Source of the DNA: a virus
DNA length: 20,823 nucleotides
Virus record (IMG/VR): IMGVR_UViG_3300032213_002760
Location: 1 to 20,823 of that record
Reading direction: 5' to 3' (one strand)
The notes below the pieces were generated by a model, which saw only the letters and a program-made list of their open reading frames with translations, was not told the DNA's origin and ran no database searches. Positions 2,370-20,546 of this stretch are shown piece by piece. Position 1 is the stretch's first letter; the number at the start of each line of letters is the position of its first letter. The translations under genes were made by a program, and so were the position numbers.

Positions 2370-5300
2370 TTAAGGACAACTACATCCGTTTATTGTTCCA
2401 AATAATTCAGTTTTACCACTCAAATCAGTTATTGTGCCAGTTGATACATAACAGAAACCACCACCACTATATAGATAATTACCAGATGATATTTGTCCTG
2501 TATAATAGTAATTTACATTTGTTTCACCACACAAAATCAATCCACTATAAATTATAGGAGCTGCCGTTGTCGTTGTAGTAGTAGATGTACTTGTAGTTGT
2601 TGTTGTATTAGAACATAATGTAAATGGTCCTGATGATTCAAATGTTCCAACACTATCTCTTGCATCTAATGTGTAAGTAGTTCCTCCACATTTACCAGTA
2701 TATGTGTTAGTTGCAGGGTAGTTATTCCAAGCACCACCATCTAATCTTGTTTGATATCCTGTGCCTGAACCACCTGTAATATTTGTAATGTTAATTGCCC
2801 CATCACACGCAGAAGGATAACTAGCACAATCATTATATCCAGTCACTATCAATGCTGATAATGTTGTTGTGGTTGTAGTTGGTGTAGCAGTTGTGGTTGT
2901 TGTAGTTATTGATGCTTGACAATCTTCACAAGTTGAGTGTTCTGAAACAACAGTTATTTGAGCTCCACCAACCGTAGTAGGACCAACTATTGTATAACAT
3001 AAACCATTACTTCCTAATATAATTTCACCAGGTGATTGATTACCTGTATATACTGCTCTTTGGTCAGCAGGAGTTGTAGTTCCGCAAGGATAATACAAAT
3101 CATACGATTGGAATGCCAACGTAGTAGTTGTAGTAGTTGTTGCCAACGTAGTAGTTGTGGTAGTAGGTGCTGCCGTAGTTGTAGTCGTTGTTGGATTACA
3201 AGCTATTTTATCAGTTACTACTCCAACATTTATAACATATCTCCAAGTACCATCTGAATAGAATCCAGTTGCTAACGTAGTACCTCCACAACTATTATAT
3301 AATGTATCTCCTATTACAATTGAACCCGAGGTATTTTTGTATGCAGTAACATCAGGCGCACTTGCATCACAAGTTGTATCATAAACAGGAGTTAAATTAA
3401 ATCCATAACAAGCCGTTGTTGTCGTTGTTGGTGCTCCTGTGGTTGTCGTAGTAGGAGCTGCCGTTGTAGTAGTCGTGGTTGTTGGAGCTCCTGTCGTTGT
3501 TGTTGTCGGTGCTGCAGTTGTTGTTGTAGTCGTAGTAGGTGCTACTGTAGTTGTAGTTGTTGGTGTTCTAGTAGTTGTTGTAGTAGGAGCAATAGTAGTT
3601 GTTGTTGTAGTATTAGGACCACAACCACAACTTCCACACGATGTTCCTAAATTTGTTGCTATTAATCCAGGAGATATAAATGTTATTGAATTAACAACAA
3701 CACATCTTGTCAAAGTTTCACCAGGAGCTACTACTGTAACTCTTATATTACAAGTTATACCTTCTTGATAATTAACTTGTAAATTACCACTTGTATTAGG
3801 ATTATAGAAAGTATAATTTGTCGCACATACAATAGTTGCAGTTGTAGTAGTTGTTGTAGGTGCTAATGTTGTAGTTGTTGTAGATGCTAATGTTGTAGTT
3901 GTTGTAGGTCCTAATGTTGTAGTTGTTGTTGGTAAAGTATAATATCTAGGATAAATTGAGTTGTAGTTAGTTATCATTTGATTAGTTGATAACGAACAAG
4001 TATAAACAGCTGCTATTTGGAATTTACTTCCACTTCCATATACGCCTCCACCAGTTAAAGGAGCTCCAAATATTCTAAATACTAAATCTGAACCAACTGT
4101 ATTAGTAGATGAATAACTACCAGTTATACCATCTATACAATAATTTCCACTATTAGTAGAATCATCAAATGATACTTGTGCAATATGCCAAGCATTATTA
4201 GATGAACCACTAGATGAACCAACTGGTATTCCAGGTGCAGAATATACAAGAGATGTAGTTTGACTACCACTCGATGCCATACCATACTGATTATTACCAG
4301 GGTCTTGGTCTTGGTCTTGTAATAATGGAGTTCCTAAATCAGATATATTTTCAGTTTTATTATCACCATAATAAGATAATACTAATGTATAAGCTGAAGT
4401 ATTTAAATTAGGGAATATAATACCATCTAAACTTCCTGTATTTAATTCTAATACAGGAGTTGATAATGCAGATGTATTATAATTCCAATTACCTAATGTT
4501 TGAATAGTTGCATTGTTATTTGCTTTACTAATATCATATATTGTACTTCCACTATTATTGTATGAAGAAGTAAATGCAATATCAATTAAAGAGAATATGC
4601 ATCCACTAACTGGCAACGAACCACTTGGTATTACAGGTGATAATGTAGTTGTAGTAGTAGTTGGTGCAAGTGTTGTTGTAGTAGTCGTAGTAGTTGGAGC
4701 TACTGTTGTTGTAGTTGTTGAAGCAGGAACGCAAGTTGCACCCTGTGTAATAGTAGAACTATCACCAGTTAAACCTTTACCATTTTCATAACAACATACA
4801 ACCAATGGAGTTCCAGCAGTTACAGGTGTTGTTGTAGTTGAACTTTCACCACATAATACATAAGTTGCAGTTTGAATTCCACTACCTGCATTAAATGTAA
4901 ACACATAACAATTACCTAATGCATTTGTTGTCGTAGTTGTTGTAGTAGGTGCTAACGTAGTAGTAGTAGTTGGTGTTCTAGTTGTAGTTGTTGTAGTAGG
5001 TGCTAACGTAGTAGTTGTTGTAGGAGCAATTGTACTAGTTGTAGTAGTAGTTGGTGCTCCCGTAGTAGTACTTGTTGTTGTAGTTGGACCTGATGTAGTT
5101 GTAGTAGTTGTAAATGAACTAGTCAACGCAAATGTATAATCAAAATCACAAGCCAATTCAGGTATAATAGTTGATATTACATCGTTTAGAATTGGTCCTA
5201 ATAATTGTAAAGAACACTCACCTGTAGATAAGTTATAATCATTAATTGCACGAAGGTGATAATAGTTTCCTCTGAACTCAACAATATCGTTAAGTTCCAT

Positions 5301-5681
5301 ATGGAAATAATCAGCTAAAGGTATAATTGCTTCACAATCTAACAAACGAGTTTGAGGATTATATAACAAATTTACATATCTTTCCCAATATGTAGAATAT
5401 AAAGATGCTGAAGGTGCTGAACCATATGCAGCAGGTTCGTTATTAAATAAAAGAGATAATGAAGATGAATCTGGTGTATTTCCACTATAATTATCAAAGT
5501 ATGGAAACGCATTAAATGGTCTTTGTTCTATTGAAGATGTTGAACCATTAGTAAATCCTTCTATAAAATATGTATCAGTTGTTTTAGTTCCGTTATAAAA
5601 ATAAATATGCGGCAAGACACGAGCAGGTTTGTAATCAATACTGCTTATGAATGTAGGAATAAATATTTTATTATTTGCCAT
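2370..5681 (-). CDS. Modular tail fibre/adhesin with poly-Thr linkers
   Basis: A 1103-aa protein. Residues 1-185 form a domain I associate with Bacteroidota phage tail proteins (YWERYVNLLYNPQTRLLDCE at 98-117; NDIVEFRGNYYHLRAIND at 131-148) and probably anchor it to the tail. The rest is modular. Thr linkers lie at about 190-252, 321-347, 585-615, 690-756, 830-854, 926-942 and 1026-1041. Between them are Cys-rich modules (253-320, 616-689, 757-829, 855-925, 1042-1103), a laminin-G/concanavalin-like module (348-584, ending in an IAAVYTCSLS...NYNSIYPRYY pattern) and an SprB-like module (943-1025). The start overlaps the upstream stop as TAATG, so it is coupled to the 704-aa tail gene. A receptor-binding fibre with long, stiff, possibly glycosylated stalks is inferred. 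Modules 855-925 and 1042-1103 look paralogous (CG..., YTG, GLCY/GFCY). No enzymatic motif is visible. Confidence 0.8.
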   Translation of the reverse strand: MANNKIFIPTFISSIDYKPARVLPHIYFYNGTKTTDTYFIEGFTNGSTSSIEQRPFNAFPYFDNYSGNTPDSSSLSLLFNNEPAAYGSAPSASLYSTYWERYVNLLYNPQTRLLDCEAIIPLADYFHMELNDIVEFRGNYYHLRAINDYNLSTGECSLQLLGPILNDVISTIIPELACDFDYTFALTSSFTTTTTTSGPTTTTSTTTGAPTTTTTSTIAPTTTTTLAPTTTTTTRTPTTTTTLAPTTTTTTTNALGNCYVFTFNAGSGIQTATYVLCGESSTTTTPVTAGTPLVVCCYENGKGLTGDSSTITQGATCVPASTTTTTVAPTTTTTTTTLAPTTTTTTLSPVIPSGSLPVSGCIFSLIDIAFTSSYNNSGSTIYDISKANNNATIQTLGNWNYNTSALSTPVLELNTGSLDGIIFPNLNTSAYTLVLSYYGDNKTENISDLGTPLLQDQDQDPGNNQYGMASSGSQTTSLVYSAPGIPVGSSSGSSNNAWHIAQVSFDDSTNSGNYCIDGITGSYSSTNTVGSDLVFRIFGAPLTGGGVYGSGSKFQIAAVYTCSLSTNQMITNYNSIYPRYYTLPTTTTTLGPTTTTTLASTTTTTLAPTTTTTTATIVCATNYTFYNPNTSGNLQVNYQEGITCNIRVTVVAPGETLTRCVVVNSITFISPGLIATNLGTSCGSCGCGPNTTTTTTIAPTTTTTRTPTTTTTVAPTTTTTTTAAPTTTTTGAPTTTTTTTAAPTTTTTGAPTTTTTACYGFNLTPVYDTTCDASAPDVTAYKNTSGSIVIGDTLYNSCGGTTLATGFYSDGTWRYVINVGVVTDKIACNPTTTTTTAAPTTTTTTLATTTTTTTLAFQSYDLYYPCGTTTPADQRAVYTGNQSPGEIILGSNGLCYTIVGPTTVGGAQITVVSEHSTCEDCQASITTTTTTATPTTTTTTLSALIVTGYNDCASYPSACDGAINITNITGGSGTGYQTRLDGGAWNNYPATNTYTGKCGGTTYTLDARDSVGTFESSGPFTLCSNTTTTTSTSTTTTTTAAPIIYSGLILCGETNVNYYYTGQISSGNYLYSGGGFCYVSTGTITDLSGKTELFGTINGCSCP
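3414..3614 (-). repeat. Longest uninterrupted Thr-linker array in the 1103-aa gene
   Basis: This codes for residues about 690-756: eight TTTTT-type blocks separated by IAP, RTP, VAP, AAP, GAP, AAP and GAP. The order AAP-T-GAP-T is used twice in tandem, suggesting past internal duplication. Synonymous Thr codons are scrambled. Confidence 0.85.
4926..5114 (-). repeat. N-proximal Thr-linker array in the 1103-aa gene
   Basis: This codes for residues about 190-252, joining the tail-anchor domain to the modular part. TTTTT blocks are separated by GAP, IAP, LAP and RTP. It is the second large degenerate ACN array; smaller ones lie at 4641-4721, 3837-3929, 3120-3194, 2856-2906 and 2559-2606. Confidence 0.85.
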
Positions 5682-14765: not shown

Positions 14766-15581
14766 TTATACGTTTCTTCCTAATGTAGTTTCAAATGTTG
14801 TAACACAATTATTGAAATTAGTATTTTGTGTTGAATTTAAATATTGACCTATTGAGAACAAAGCATATTCTCTACTACTAAAATCAGATGCAGTTCCAGA
14901 TGGTCTTCCTAATGCACAAACTGCAATATTATTATTTGCAGTTCCATATGTTTTAGAAGATGATGTTAATAATGAACCATCTAAATATAGATAAGTTGTA
15001 GAAGTATCCGAAGTACCAACAAATAAGCCTAAATGGTCTGCTCCATTTGATATTATATATGGATTACCAGGAGCAACATCACCAAATGCAGTGTATCTAT
15101 CATTATCAAATCTTGCAATCATATTTTCAGATGTTGGTGCTTGAGTAGGATAATTATTACTACCTATATCATAAGCTGCTGAATTACCTTCTGTTCGTAT
15201 ATATGCCGATAAACTCATACCTGAGGTAAATAAACCAGAAGCATTTGGATTTAAAAATGTATTACCCCATCCAGTTGTACCATTACCAGTCACACCTGTT
15301 GATGCAAAACTAACTGTTCCATTCCAAGTAATTTGATATGTTAATGTATTAATTAAATTATATGAACAAGGAACTGCAGATGCTCCAACTAATGGATATA
15401 TCACATTAAATTGATTCCACAAACTATATGATTTTAAATCTAATACAAATTGGTTTATAGCAGTTGCTTCTGTACCAGATATACCTGTTGCAGTAATAAA
15501 TGCTTGTGCATCAGGGTCATATCCACCACCTGATACTATAATCTTCTTTTGAAAATACGATACTGGTAATATTAAACCCAT
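14766..15581 (-). CDS. Lectin-fold (concanavalin-like) tail fibre/adhesin protein
   Basis: A 271-aa protein. The region DAQAFITATGISGTEATAIN followed by QFVLDLKSYSLWNQFNVIYP (about 24-63) matches a recurrent phage segment that precedes a concanavalin/laminin-G-like fold. The rest is beta-rich, with SMxLSAYIRTEGNS-type strand, YLYLDGSLLTSSS, and an ALFSIGQYLNSTQNTNFNNC ending that recalls the terminal strand/helix of such lectin domains. It follows the 834-aa fibre by one base, which suggests a receptor-binding tip or accessory fibre. A carbohydrate-binding role is inferred from the fold only. A second, separate laminin-G-like module lies in the 1103-aa protein. Confidence 0.65.
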   Translation of the reverse strand: MGLILPVSYFQKKIIVSGGGYDPDAQAFITATGISGTEATAINQFVLDLKSYSLWNQFNVIYPLVGASAVPCSYNLINTLTYQITWNGTVSFASTGVTGNGTTGWGNTFLNPNASGLFTSGMSLSAYIRTEGNSAAYDIGSNNYPTQAPTSENMIARFDNDRYTAFGDVAPGNPYIISNGADHLGLFVGTSDTSTTYLYLDGSLLTSSSKTYGTANNNIAVCALGRPSGTASDFSSREYALFSIGQYLNSTQNTNFNNCVTTFETTLGRNV

Positions 15582-15582
15582 A

Positions 15583-18087
15583 TTAAATAAAGTTAGTTAC
15601 GTTGGCAATGTATGTTTTAGCAGTATTGTTAAACGTTACAAATGTTAATATATCTTCAGCGTTTGAAGTAGGTGTTGGAACATAAGAACTACCCGATGGT
15701 TGATATATAAATGGTCCCATTTGAATTGAACCAGTACCAGATGCAGGTTGTGTAATTAATAAGTTATATGTTTGTCCTACTTTTTGACCACTTAATGCTA
15801 TATGTGTTGTACTTCCACTTACTAATGTTAAAGTGTATGTAGAAGCTAACGTTGTATCAATAGATGCAGTTTGCGATGTTATTGTTAATGCGTATGGTGT
15901 TGAATAAACTCCACCACTAATATTTAATCCTCCACTTATATAAGTAGAACCAGTTATATTTACTGCTCCCGTAATAGATGTTGAACCACTAATACTTAAT
16001 GTACCTTCTACAAATACATTAGAACCAGAATCAATTAAGAAACCTGTCTTTCTTGCTCCTGTTCCTGTTCCCGTTCCTACTGCAAATATAGTTTCACCAC
16101 TTCTTGCAGCAGTTCCATTTACAGAGTTGTTTCTACCTATAAAAGTAGAACCTGCACTTGCTTGTGTATTATATGCATTCGAACCAGTTACTGTTAAGTT
16201 AGAACCATGTATTAAAGTTGAATATAAGTTTGAATTATCTCCATTAAGGACTACTCCAATTGCAAGACCAGCACCATTAGTTGTATTACCACTTACTTCT
16301 CTCGGTGCTGCTGCACTTGTATTACTACCACTTGCAGTTAATGTAGGAGTATTTATTCCACCAAATACGTTATTAGCTAATGATAATCTTTGTGCTGCAG
16401 CCGTTGATGCCGTTCCAAAGTATGAGTTATTAACAGTAAATGTATTACCAACAAATATATTATTATTAGCTGCAATAGATGAACTAAACGCAGTTAATGT
16501 TGAATTACCTACTGATAAGTTAGATTGGAAAACTGCTTGTGCTACTAATGGTGTAGTATATGCGTTGTAATTAACTGCTGCTAACAATAAGTTAGTAGTT
16601 ATATTACCACCTGCTACTGCTTGATTTGCTGATGTTGCATCTGCATTACCTATGTTGAAGTTTCCGTTTACAATATTATTAGTTATTGCCCAAGCAGAAG
16701 ATGAAGCAGGACCTCTAAAACGAATTATATTAGTTGCATAATTACTAGAAATATTTGGTGTGTATGTTGTTAATGAGCCTGTTACTTCAGGTTGATTACC
16801 AGTTAGCATTACATTATTACTTCCTACTTGTCTTCTAAAACCTGTAGTTGGTATTGCCGGTGTTACACATATATTTCCACTACCTGATAATGTAAAAGAA
16901 CCAGTATTTGTGTTAGAAGATTTGAATATTATATTTACAAAACCTACAGAAGATGATATATGTGATAATGCTGCAGAACTGGATGCATATGTTTTAGCTA
17001 CTAATACTAATGAACCACTATATGATGATATAGTAGAATTGTTTCCACTTCCATCAGATAATGTTTGGTCTCCTATAAATAAGTTTGAACCTGTAGTTGC
17101 ATAAGAACCAGTTAATGCACTTATACTTGCAACAGATGCACTAAATGATGCAGTTGTTGTTTGTAATGTATTCCACTTTGTATCGTTAGATGCAGTATAA
17201 TCATTTAATGAAGTATTATCTAAACTACCTGTCCCATTAACTAAAGTTATAGCAACACTTGCAGTTGTAGTTAATAAGTTTGTATTTGGGTTATATATAA
17301 ATGCATTTGTACTTTGTAATCCACCATATGAATTAGTTGCATCTGTAAATGTAACTAAATGTGTTTGATTTGCTGATGTATTTTGAACATAAACATTAGA
17401 TGCAGATACTGCAAATGATGCACTCAATACACTCATTGAACTCGTCTGTGCTGATGTTATATAACTTCCAGTCTGTCCACCTAATGTATTCCACTTTGTA
17501 TCGTTAGATGCAGTATAAGTATTAAATGAACTTGTCTGTAAGAATCCTAATCCAACTATCTGTGCTGATGATGATACAGTACCTGTTGGTACTCCACTTC
17601 CACTAACATCAGGTATTACAATACCAAATGTTGTATTATCTCCTTTTCTGAATGTAAGGGTATTACCACTAAAAGAAGCAGTTGTTAATCCTAAACTTGC
17701 AGAAGTAAATAAAGATGAAGTTGCACTATTAATAGATGATGTAGAATATCCTACTGCTAAGTTCTTTGTATCTTGTGATGCAGTATATGCGTTTAAAGAA
17801 GTTAAATCAGTTGTTCCTCCTCCACTACCTGTATTAACAGTTACTGCAAATGTAGTACCATTACCTTTTGTAAAAGTAATTGTATTAAGATTTACCGATG
17901 CCGTTATTAAAGATGATGCAGTAATTGCAGATGTTACAAAACTACCTGTATCTAAACTATCTACTAACGTATCTATGGTTTGTGTATTATAATTACGAAG
18001 TATTGCAGGAGTAATCGCTTCCGTTGATTGGTCAGGAAACGAACTTTGATTTAATGCTTCTAATTGTGCTTTTGTTAAAATCGCCAT
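15583..18087 (-). CDS. Long tail fibre/surface protein with repeats
   Basis: An 834-aa Ser/Thr/Asn-rich protein without enzymatic motif. The N-terminus (1-45) is helical (LTKAQLEALNQSSFPDQSTE, then ILRNYNTQTIDTLVDSL), as in fibre attachment domains. Residues 46-330 are repeats: ITFTKGNGTTFAVTV (70-84) against LTFRKGDNTTFGIVI (144-158), and YTASNDTKWNTL at 191-202 and 297-308, with a degenerate YTASQDTK at 101-108. Residues about 340-690 look like an Asn/Gly-rich beta-helix, and 720-834 a C-terminal knob (SITGAVNITGSTYISGGLNI, then HIALSGQKVGQTYNLLITQP). No intramolecular chaperone (S74-type) signature is seen. A host-recognition fibre is inferred, located between a 95-aa Cys-motif gene and the lectin-fold gene. 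Confidence 0.75.
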   Translation of the reverse strand: MAILTKAQLEALNQSSFPDQSTEAITPAILRNYNTQTIDTLVDSLDTGSFVTSAITASSLITASVNLNTITFTKGNGTTFAVTVNTGSGGGTTDLTSLNAYTASQDTKNLAVGYSTSSINSATSSLFTSASLGLTTASFSGNTLTFRKGDNTTFGIVIPDVSGSGVPTGTVSSSAQIVGLGFLQTSSFNTYTASNDTKWNTLGGQTGSYITSAQTSSMSVLSASFAVSASNVYVQNTSANQTHLVTFTDATNSYGGLQSTNAFIYNPNTNLLTTTASVAITLVNGTGSLDNTSLNDYTASNDTKWNTLQTTTASFSASVASISALTGSYATTGSNLFIGDQTLSDGSGNNSTISSYSGSLVLVAKTYASSSAALSHISSSVGFVNIIFKSSNTNTGSFTLSGSGNICVTPAIPTTGFRRQVGSNNVMLTGNQPEVTGSLTTYTPNISSNYATNIIRFRGPASSSAWAITNNIVNGNFNIGNADATSANQAVAGGNITTNLLLAAVNYNAYTTPLVAQAVFQSNLSVGNSTLTAFSSSIAANNNIFVGNTFTVNNSYFGTASTAAAQRLSLANNVFGGINTPTLTASGSNTSAAAPREVSGNTTNGAGLAIGVVLNGDNSNLYSTLIHGSNLTVTGSNAYNTQASAGSTFIGRNNSVNGTAARSGETIFAVGTGTGTGARKTGFLIDSGSNVFVEGTLSISGSTSITGAVNITGSTYISGGLNISGGVYSTPYALTITSQTASIDTTLASTYTLTLVSGSTTHIALSGQKVGQTYNLLITQPASGTGSIQMGPFIYQPSGSSYVPTPTSNAEDILTFVTFNNTAKTYIANVTNFI
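17164..17200 (-). repeat. 37-bp direct repeat, copy 1 (fibre gene)
   Basis: Identical over 37 bp to 17482-17518. It codes for the YTASNDTKWNTL segment of the 834-aa fibre. A degenerate third copy lies near 17766-17790. The exact DNA identity of the two copies suggests recent duplication or gene conversion. Confidence 0.85.
17482..17518 (-). repeat. 37-bp direct repeat, copy 2 (fibre gene)
   Basis: Second perfect copy of the 37-bp element at 17164-17200, 318 bp apart (start to start), in the same reading frame, so a crossover between copies would delete 106 codons in frame. Confidence 0.85.
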
Positions 18088-18421: not shown

Positions 18422-18443
18422 GTGGGATTTATAATTACCCCAC
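18422..18443 (-). other. Hairpin at the end of the -1-frame ORF
   Basis: On the minus strand GTGGG and CCCAC form a 5-bp stem with a 12-nt A/T loop; the TAA of the -1-frame extension (18435-18437) lies in the loop. The layout (G-run, A/T loop, AAATCCC..CACT) resembles the hairpin 12790-12809 after the capsid gene. Confidence 0.45.
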
Positions 18444-18701
18444 CTTCTTTAAGCTTTCTTTATGCATTAAGTTCTGTAACGTATTGTAATCTGAATGATA
18501 CGATAAGAAGAACAAACACTTTTCTAATGGTTGTTTAACTACCTCATCTATTTTAAGGAGTTCTCCACCGCAAAGAGTGATGATTGATTGATAAGAGCCC
18601 CACTTGCGGCCAAAATTGATTTGATGTTGGGAGGTATCTCCTGATGATTCTGAATCAAAGATTTCAGGGTATTTTTCAATAAGACCTTTGACAAATTGAT
18701 A
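18435..18701 (-). CDS. -1-frame C-terminal extension of the tail-chaperone-like gene
   Basis: If the ribosome slips back one base at the T9 run, the frame stays open for 88 codons and stops at TAA 18437-18435. The product looks like real protein: YQFVKGLIEKYPEIFDSE, then INFGRKWGSYQSIITLCGGE, then LLKIDEVVKQPLEKCLFFLS and ending KKVG. The FGRKWGxY...L.GG...KIDEV...PL....FL pattern is what I expect in the second half of this phage family. It fills an otherwise empty 156-bp gap before the 95-aa gene. No good separate start codon is apparent. It would give a 256-aa fusion (168 + 88). A one-base sequencing or assembly error in the T run would give the same picture. Confidence 0.75.
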   Translation of the reverse strand, partial: YQFVKGLIEKYPEIFDSESSGDTSQHQINFGRKWGSYQSIITLCGGELLKIDEVVKQPLEKCLFFLSYHSDYNTLQNLMHKESLKKVG

Positions 18702-19204
18702 AAAAAAAACAGAGCTCCAAAATGTATCTCCATATTAACTTCTCTCCAATGCTCTGAAGGTTCATTACCTGTATATTGTTCTATCTCATATAACTTACCT
18801 AATTTCTTTTTAACAGGTCTGTATAGTATAGCCATTATCTTTTCCCAATTCTCATTTATATTCAGCTCATCGAACTTTGATATATCTACATAAGCACCAT
18901 AAGCAATTTGGGATAAGTTTGGTTCGAACCCATACTCAACTCCGTTTATATTTACGAATGGTATTAAATCAAATGTTTCTCTTGCTATAAATGAAAGCAA
19001 TTGTTCTTTTATTTTAATGAATGTTGCCGTATCTATCTTACTCATTATACCTGGCTCTACATTACATAAGTGGTAGAATAGAGTTGCTAGTTTAGCTTCT
19101 TCATCATCACCATATACCTTCAAATCCTTTTGTAATTGCAAGAACTTTGTTAGAGTAATTGCTGAATAATCATTGGGTACTTTTATTTCTAATATCTGTT
19201 TCAT
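18548..19204 (-). CDS. Tail assembly chaperone-like protein (frame 0 product)
   Basis: As read in one frame this is 218 aa. Residues 1-168 look like the N-terminal part of a conserved Bacteroidota phage family: a beta start (ILEIKVPNDYSAITLTKFLQ), an acidic helix, VNINGVEYGFEPNLSQIAYG (84-103), YVDISKFDEL, and MAILYRPV (124-131). After F166-F168, coded by nine T at 18709-18701, the frame-0 tail of 50 aa (INLSKVLLKN... to NSLK) is unconvincing, while the -1 frame continues the protein plausibly. Tail chaperones are known for programmed -1 frameshifts. The ATG overlaps the stop of the 59-aa gene (ATGA). Placement after the large terminase, away from a tape measure, is unusual, so the role is tentative. 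Confidence 0.6.
   Translation of the reverse strand: MKQILEIKVPNDYSAITLTKFLQLQKDLKVYGDDEEAKLATLFYHLCNVEPGIMSKIDTATFIKIKEQLLSFIARETFDLIPFVNINGVEYGFEPNLSQIAYGAYVDISKFDELNINENWEKIMAILYRPVKKKLGKLYEIEQYTGNEPSEHWREVNMEIHFGALFFFINLSKVLLKNTLKSLIQNHQEIPPNIKSILAASGALINQSSLFAVENSLK
18701..18709 (-). promoter_or_regulatory. Candidate -1 frameshift slippery run (nine T)
   Basis: On the minus strand the reading frame is CTG TTT TTT TTT ATC. This contains the U-UUU-UUU heptamer, which can slip by -1, and a run long enough for RNA-polymerase slippage. Upstream coding is convincing in frame 0 and downstream coding in frame -1. A possible stimulating hairpin (CCTGA...GATTC-A-GAATC...TCAGG) begins about 32 nt downstream, further than the usual spacing. 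Confidence 0.6.
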
Positions 19205-19380
19205 GCTTGTCCTGTTATTTGTTTTATGTAGTTTGTTAATCGTTTAACTTTTGCTTCCTCATTATCTAATTTAGCTTGCATCAGTACAATACCTGCTCTT
19301 AAATCTTCATTTACATCTTGCATCTCCTTTACATATAATAGGATTTGTCTGATTTCTTCTGATGTGTATGTTTGTTCCAT
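19201..19380 (-). CDS. Small 59-aa coiled-coil protein
   Basis: A short gene: MEQTYTSEEIRQILLYVKEM, then QDVNEDLRAGIVLMQAKLDN, then a Lys-rich end EEAKVKRLTNYIKQITGQA. Heptad-like spacing of Ile/Leu/Val/Met suggests one long helix or coiled coil. The start overlaps the large-terminase stop (TAATG) and the stop overlaps the next start (ATGA), so it is locked into the operon at both ends, which strongly supports it being translated. The function is unknown; a packaging or tail-assembly partner is possible from position only. Confidence 0.75.
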   Translation of the reverse strand: MEQTYTSEEIRQILLYVKEMQDVNEDLRAGIVLMQAKLDNEEAKVKRLTNYIKQITGQA

Positions 19381-20546
19381 TAGTATCTATAGTTTCCAAT
19401 TGAGATTGCGTACTTTCCTTTTGCTTGTGCTTTCTGTGATAGTTTCATCATTACTGCGTATCTTGCTGCGTCAATAGCATGGTCTAATCCTCCATCGGGT
19501 CTATCAGTTACATAGCCATTTTTATCTTGAATATACTCATACCCATACATCTCATTGATTAAATTATGAGATGATTTAAGAATATGTATTTTATAGTTTT
19601 GCATTACACCTATACCAAACCTAATACTATCAGGTCCTTTTACTACTGGCTTTATATTAAATCCACTACGGTATATCTCGTCTATAAGTCTAGGTTCTGC
19701 ACTATCACAGAAGATTTCGTGTGATTTATCTATATCTAATTTTCTGAATTTTTCAATGATGTCATTAGTAACAAGCCTTTTTTCATAAAGTAATTCTTCC
19801 AAATATAATTCATTACCTTTTTGGTATATTGCAACCAGTGCAGAGGGGTCAGCAGAGTAGCCAACATCAAAACCAAAGGCAACGAAATCAGCATCAGTAT
19901 CATCAACAATGTCAAATTCAAATATAGCTTTATCATTTGTTGTATATTCCCCAAGTCCGTAGATTTTCCAGTATTTTTCATTTTTTTGTTTTAATTCTTC
20001 AATTCCTTTTATTATTTCTTCATTCAAATATGGATTGTCTAAATATGTGGTTACATATTTGTCACAATCTTCCATCTTTCGTAAATAGTGATATGGGCTT
20101 ATGGTGGGGTTATAACACAATATAATTTTGCGTGTTGTTCTGATACTTAACTGAAAGTAACTTTCTTCATCAACTTCGTTTGCTTCATCTATGAATAAGA
20201 TGTCTGATTTAATTCCTCTTAATTTGTCAGCATCATCTGTGGATATAAACTGAATAATAGAATTACCATAGGACCATATTCTATCAGTAGCATTCCAATC
20301 GGATTCATTCCATAAATCAATACCAATTAATATATCCTTAAAATCCTTCATTACAGTTCTTTTAAGAGATGGTATTGTCTTTCTAACAATAGTTACTATC
20401 GTAGGTGTTTGAATCGCTTGTACTATACAGTATTGAAGTGCAGAGTATGATTTAGAACTTCTGGTCCCACCTAAATTATGAACAACTTTATGTTTACTAT
20501 TCATAATGTTGTCGAATGTAATTGTCGTGTTAATCGTTAGTTCCAA
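19380..20546 (-). CDS. terL: Terminase large subunit
   Basis: A 388-aa DNA-packaging motor with ATPase and nuclease halves. Walker A is GGTRSSKS (26-33; K32), Walker B ILFIDE (116-121; D120, E121), and the coupling motif CYNPT is at 144-148. The nuclease half has D227 in FGFDVGYSADPSA, D281 in CDSAEP, and DHAIDAARYA (355-364; D355, D359), giving the metal-binding acids of the RNase H-like fold. Residue 31 is Ser where many relatives have Gly before the Lys. The start is TTG at 20546, overlapping the small-terminase-like gene by 17 bp, with a purine-rich AAAGGAAA just before it. The next in-frame ATG (residue 15) would drop residues that are normally conserved. It packages DNA through the portal (10452-11738). 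Confidence 0.93.
   Translation of the reverse strand: MELTINTTITFDNIMNSKHKVVHNLGGTRSSKSYSALQYCIVQAIQTPTIVTIVRKTIPSLKRTVMKDFKDILIGIDLWNESDWNATDRIWSYGNSIIQFISTDDADKLRGIKSDILFIDEANEVDEESYFQLSIRTTRKIILCYNPTISPYHYLRKMEDCDKYVTTYLDNPYLNEEIIKGIEELKQKNEKYWKIYGLGEYTTNDKAIFEFDIVDDTDADFVAFGFDVGYSADPSALVAIYQKGNELYLEELLYEKRLVTNDIIEKFRKLDIDKSHEIFCDSAEPRLIDEIYRSGFNIKPVVKGPDSIRFGIGVMQNYKIHILKSSHNLINEMYGYEYIQDKNGYVTDRPDGGLDHAIDAARYAVMMKLSQKAQAKGKYAISIGNYRY

Follow-up and report, generated by a model that had tools for sequence, protein, structure and literature searches.

A conserved run of at least nine T in a tail-chaperone-like gene near terL of tailed phages, with probable expression of two proteins and RNA polymerase slippage as the favoured mechanism

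The slip gene and its surroundings

The window, which is the whole 20.8-kb stretch of DNA analysed (20,823 nucleotides), is a fragment of a tailed phage genome. Its minus strand carries the gene for the terminase large subunit (terL), then a small ORF, and then a gene that contains a run of nine T, referred to here as the slip gene (Table 1). The run covers codons 166–168 in the context GCT CTG TTT TTT TTT ATC. Unshifted translation from the ATG at 19204 to the stop at 18548 gives a product of 218 amino acids, and the −1 segment ends at a TAA codon (18437–18435), such that the product joined across the slip would have 256 amino acids. The coordinates of the gene and of the run in the preliminary description are correct. 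A T9 run by itself is unremarkable in this AT-rich window (one present, 1.76 expected from shuffled sequences). The small ORF upstream (19204–19383, about 59 codons) has a stop codon that overlaps the start codon of the slip gene (ATGA), and its place is taken by a 112-amino-acid ORF in the contig G008.

Table 1. Features at the slip gene in the window
Feature	Position	Strand	Details and evidence
T9 run, candidate slip site	18701..18709	-	codons CTG TTT TTT TTT ATC; includes T_TTT_TTT; A9 on the plus strand
N-terminal domain, frame 0, 168 codons, conserved, tail-chaperone-like	18701..19204	-	alignments, AlphaFold, Pfam
C-terminal segment, −1 frame, 88 codons, conserved	18438..18701	-	homology, changes by codon position, model
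Frame-0 tail of the unshifted product, 50 codons and stop, overlapping the −1 segment	18548..18700	-	open length, reduced third-position changes
terL (terminase large subunit), lying upstream of the slip gene	19380..20546	-	PHROG_2 6.7e-40; Pfam Terminase_3 1e-20

The slip gene lies near terL and not between the genes for the major tail protein and the tape measure, which is the usual, although not universal, position of a chaperone gene; the odd location pointed out in the preliminary description is thus supported. The accompanying remark that no tape measure gene is nearby holds within the window. However, a 32.7-kb relative (G001), whose slip-gene protein is 94% identical to that of the window, carries a 673-codon gene with a match to tape-measure families (3e-14), located some 19 kb downstream of the slip gene, which indicates that this phage group has a tape measure and that the chaperone-like gene is merely distant from it.

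Other minus-strand regions of the window differ from their counterparts in G001 or G008. The regions 2370–5681 and 1794–2363 encode large proteins with many threonine-rich linkers (TTTTTxAPTTTTT); the 1103-amino-acid linker protein corresponds to one of 1049 amino acids in G001 and to a 178-amino-acid ORF at the same place in G008, and this region is therefore strongly variable. Two fibre-like ORFs (14766–18087; 271 and 834 amino acids) stand where G001 has a single ORF of 1229 amino acids, and represent a rearranged or split tail-fibre gene. A small HNH-endonuclease-like ORF (436–774) is located between ORFs that directly adjoin each other in G001 and is probably a mobile insertion.

The two halves of the slip-gene protein were modelled separately using AlphaFold, with a pLDDT of 92 for the N-terminal half and 86 for the C-terminal half, the model of which is helical. 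The top VIA-align match is the HK97 tail assembly chaperone (2ob9; Z 3.0, rmsd 4.1, 60 residues), and it spans residues 11–75, the same region as the match to Pfam Phage_TAC_7 (PF10109). The latter family is hit by 12 of 56 relatives, all below the cut-off (best E 2.2e-4, for L136, which scores 21.2 bits against a cut-off of 25), and Pfam gave no match for the protein of the window. PHROG families annotated as 'tail protein' are matched by 23 of the 56 relatives and those annotated as tail assembly chaperone by four. In Foldseek searches, the N-terminal model gave nothing significant against the PDB and many unnamed viral relatives, including a protein of Nonlabens phage P12024S; an NCBIfam search returned chance matches only. 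Although they come from separate sources, the chaperone matches are all weak, and the predicted protein weakly resembles tail chaperones and can be called no more than a putative member of a named family, which agrees with its earlier description as tail-chaperone-like. Flavobacterium phage 6H gp10 (L342, 10352–10927) is a weak structural match (TM 0.36) with no T9 run, and its end coincides with the start of a long −1 ORF.

Conservation of the split and coding in both frames

Three profile-based surveys contributed 191, 143 (more distant) and 158 loci, giving 492 loci with both halves located, a number that includes the window and many near-duplicates, the same contig sometimes appearing under two identifiers. 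At all 492, the two halves are in a −1 relation across a run of nine T (439 loci), ten T (49) or eleven T (4); among these loci, neither a run shorter than nine T nor a continuous, in-frame arrangement was found. The same run and the same relation persist after clustering at 90, 70, 60, and 50% identity (201, 99, 53, and 18 groups, respectively). As most scans were queried with the N-terminal half only, the −1 relation was not selected for. The first homologues in IMG/VR, which were recovered using the frame-0 protein as the query, carry the run, and their C-terminal part can be reached only via the −1 frame. In the last survey, the C-terminal half could not be located in two of 160 loci (L410, L416), each of which ends shortly past the N-terminal match. 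The preliminary description had proposed a probable −1 frame change that joins two convincing halves at the T run and had suggested comparing homologues for a conserved run at this codon; the frame relation is seen at 492 of 492 loci, with at least nine T at each.

The sequences are all metagenomic except those of the cultured Nonlabens phages P12024S and P12024L, in which a homologue directly behind terL, about 25% identical, shows the −1 relation across a T9 run (ATA CTT TTT TTT TAT). Loss of one T during sequencing or assembly of a truly single-frame gene, which the preliminary description regarded as a serious alternative, would fit the error-prone nature of homopolymers and the fact that T10 would restore one frame in the window. 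However, the −1 relation recurs in every locus with both halves, from many metagenomes and from the two cultured phages, at differing run lengths and phases and never in frame, and such an error is hardly credible and was rejected. Phase variation, in which the length of the run in the DNA would switch the C-terminal part on or off, is suggested by a long homopolymer within a coding sequence, but not one of the 492 loci is an in-frame (ON) variant, and wherever run length differs, the codon phase differs with it, such that the −1 relation is preserved. This possibility was likewise rejected as highly improbable.

In the Nonlabens phages, the gene has been annotated as two unrelated hypothetical proteins (gp38–39 in P12024S, gp40–41 in P12024L), and, unlike in the window, the frame-0 tail is only 25 codons long. 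Expression of the −1 segment as a separate protein from its own start, as these two annotated coding sequences imply, is very unlikely, because homology of the segment begins right at the run, where there is no conserved start codon, and because the start annotated in P12024L would cut approximately 26 residues from the beginning of the conserved segment. The comparison of these loci points to one gene that probably encodes two proteins. In addition, BFVD proteins of 226–267 amino acids match both halves (e.g., A0A516L611, A0A6J5N0W0), which suggests that frame-continuous family members may exist; the DNA behind these proteins was looked for and not found. If real, proteins of this kind would demonstrate that the gene product is functional when joined.

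Downstream of the run, both frames bear signs of constraint. Changes in the −1 frame have a coding pattern, with values for the first, second, and third codon positions of 0.13, 0.08, and 0.19 in the overlap and 0.15, 0.09, and 0.30 after it (154 pairs). Frame 0 stays open after the run for a median of 48–51 codons in the relatives, compared with the 8–9 codons expected, whereas the third frame closes at a median of three codons. Within the overlap, the −1 frame shows fewer changes at third positions (0.21 vs. 0.29; Wilcoxon p 1.4e-9), and the openness of frame 0 is significant (p < 0.05) in 87 of 99 sequences when synonymous codons are resampled. These p values are optimistic owing to pooled codon usage and shared ancestry, but the trend they indicate is clear. 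The frame-0 tail is also conserved in sequence (e.g., NIKSILExSG), and synonymous variation is minimal just past the run and near the frame-0 NIKSIL motif. The overlap is probably a dual-coding region and the tail of the 218-amino-acid product probably functional. The earlier opinion that frame 0 becomes unconvincing past Phe168 does not hold, as this tail is conserved and is held open for about 51 codons against 9 expected. The data for this family show a conserved split, nine or more T at the site, and coding constraint on both frames past it.

Architecture of the T run and the slipping machinery

The T run occupies three codon phases across the family, and a T_TTT_TTT heptamer is in phase at every site. 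The heptamer makes −1 ribosomal frameshifting possible, with the additional T residues as a by-product of Leu and Phe codons or with both mechanisms operating, a reading that deserves serious consideration but that we regard as the less probable one. Ribosomal frameshifting is established for tail chaperone genes (PMC5009743), and the protein resembles Phage_TAC_7, the family that includes the E protein of phage P2, in which E+E′ is produced by −1 ribosomal frameshifting at TTTTTTG with no downstream hairpin (PMC3091744). Local folding revealed no RNA structure upstream or downstream of the run (mean z about 0; for the 50–60 nt after the run in 99 sequences, mean z 0.15–0.2, in a test that does not cover pseudoknots and long-range pairings). 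The absence of a stimulatory structure counts against the ribosome, but P2 E+E′ lacks one as well, so this result decides nothing.

The conserved run exceeds the heptamer in length. Across the sites examined, no T7, T8 or other slippery heptamer was found. Among the 99 clusters at 70% identity, the numbers of T before and after the TTTTTT core are (3,0), (2,1), (1,2), (2,2), (1,3), (3,1), and (3,2); their sum is always at least three, whereas (1,0) would suffice for a ribosomal heptamer. When three T precede the core, none follows in 37 of 39 sites; with two in front, at least one follows in all 54 sites; and with one in front, at least two follow in all six. T residues absent on one side are thus made up on the other, such that the total never falls below nine, as illustrated by GTT TTT TTT TAT in some relatives and AGT TTT TTT TTG in others beside them. 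When mapped on a tree inferred with the site left out, the arrangement switches about 13 times, and each switch leaves nine or more T. A conservative test with independent pairs points in the same direction but, with just five pairs, falls short of significance (p 0.125–0.25), and the run-length argument could in part follow from conserved Leu and Phe residues and from phylogeny.

Bacterial RNA polymerase is known to slip efficiently in vivo at nine A or T (PMC5009743), and in many bacteria the avoidance of A/T runs sets in at that same length (PMC1088944). Elsewhere in the contigs, A/T runs this long or longer are scarce, with 15 observed in 630 kb against an expectation of 72. Such a deficit would be predicted if these runs slip, although avoidance of long A/T runs also has other causes. 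Because it is a length of at least nine T and not the heptamer that is conserved, the comparison favours RNA polymerase slippage over −1 ribosomal frameshifting, short of proof. The preliminary description had taken the ribosomal heptamer as its main reading and named polymerase slippage as an alternative; the order of the two is reversed here.

A probable two-product gene and related systems

We infer slippage by the polymerase rather than the ribosome, a ratio of the products and a chaperone role as follows. RNA polymerase would slip on the T run (A9 in the template, U9 in the RNA). The majority of transcripts would keep nine U and yield the 218-amino-acid product, and transcripts with one extra U would bring the 88-codon segment into frame and yield the 256-amino-acid product; translation of transcripts in the third frame would terminate within a few codons. 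One gene would thereby provide two proteins with a common N-terminal domain, as do lambda gpG/gpGT and P2 E/E+E′, the short product possibly being the abundant chaperone form and the long product a less abundant one that, in addition, recruits a further tail protein. Such a chaperone-style, two-product gene expressed via RNA polymerase slippage is, in our judgement, the probable explanation, held with moderate confidence, and slippage by both the polymerase and the ribosome may occur.

In lambda, the slip site is GGGAAAG and not a T homopolymer, and the G/GT gene lies directly before the tape measure gene. The slip gene shares with gpG/gpGT an N-terminal domain common to both products and a longer −1 product (PMC5009743). 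Features in common with P2 E/E+E′ (PF10109) are one start, two products, a −1 relation at a T-rich site, no downstream hairpin, and an N-terminal domain that weakly matches the Phage_TAC_7 profile. Unlike P2, which has T6, the family never has fewer than nine T, the gene comes after terL and at a great distance from the tape measure gene, the products are larger (218/256 vs. 91/142 amino acids), and the unshifted tail of about 50 codons is constrained. The Thermus thermophilus dnaX gene and IS transposases expressed by slippage have alternative products that depend on polymerase slippage at nine A or T (PMC5009743, PMC1088944). These systems resemble the slip gene in the run and in the alternative products, but they are not phage tail genes, and in dnaX it is the unshifted frame that encodes the long product.

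Tail chaperone genes are a standard textbook example of ribosomal frameshifting. The retention of nine or more T at the site, in three codon phases across a whole phage group, suggests that the same role can be served by polymerase slippage, and no description of polymerase slippage for a phage tail gene was found in the open-access literature searched. The chances are about even that polymerase slippage at T9–T11, in place of ribosomal frameshifting, provides the two chaperone forms in a large and widespread group of tailed phages, with an unshifted product that has a dual-coded C-terminal tail of its own. The cultured Nonlabens phages offer an easily tested system, and the reading is corrected for hundreds of viral contigs in which the slip gene appears cut in two.
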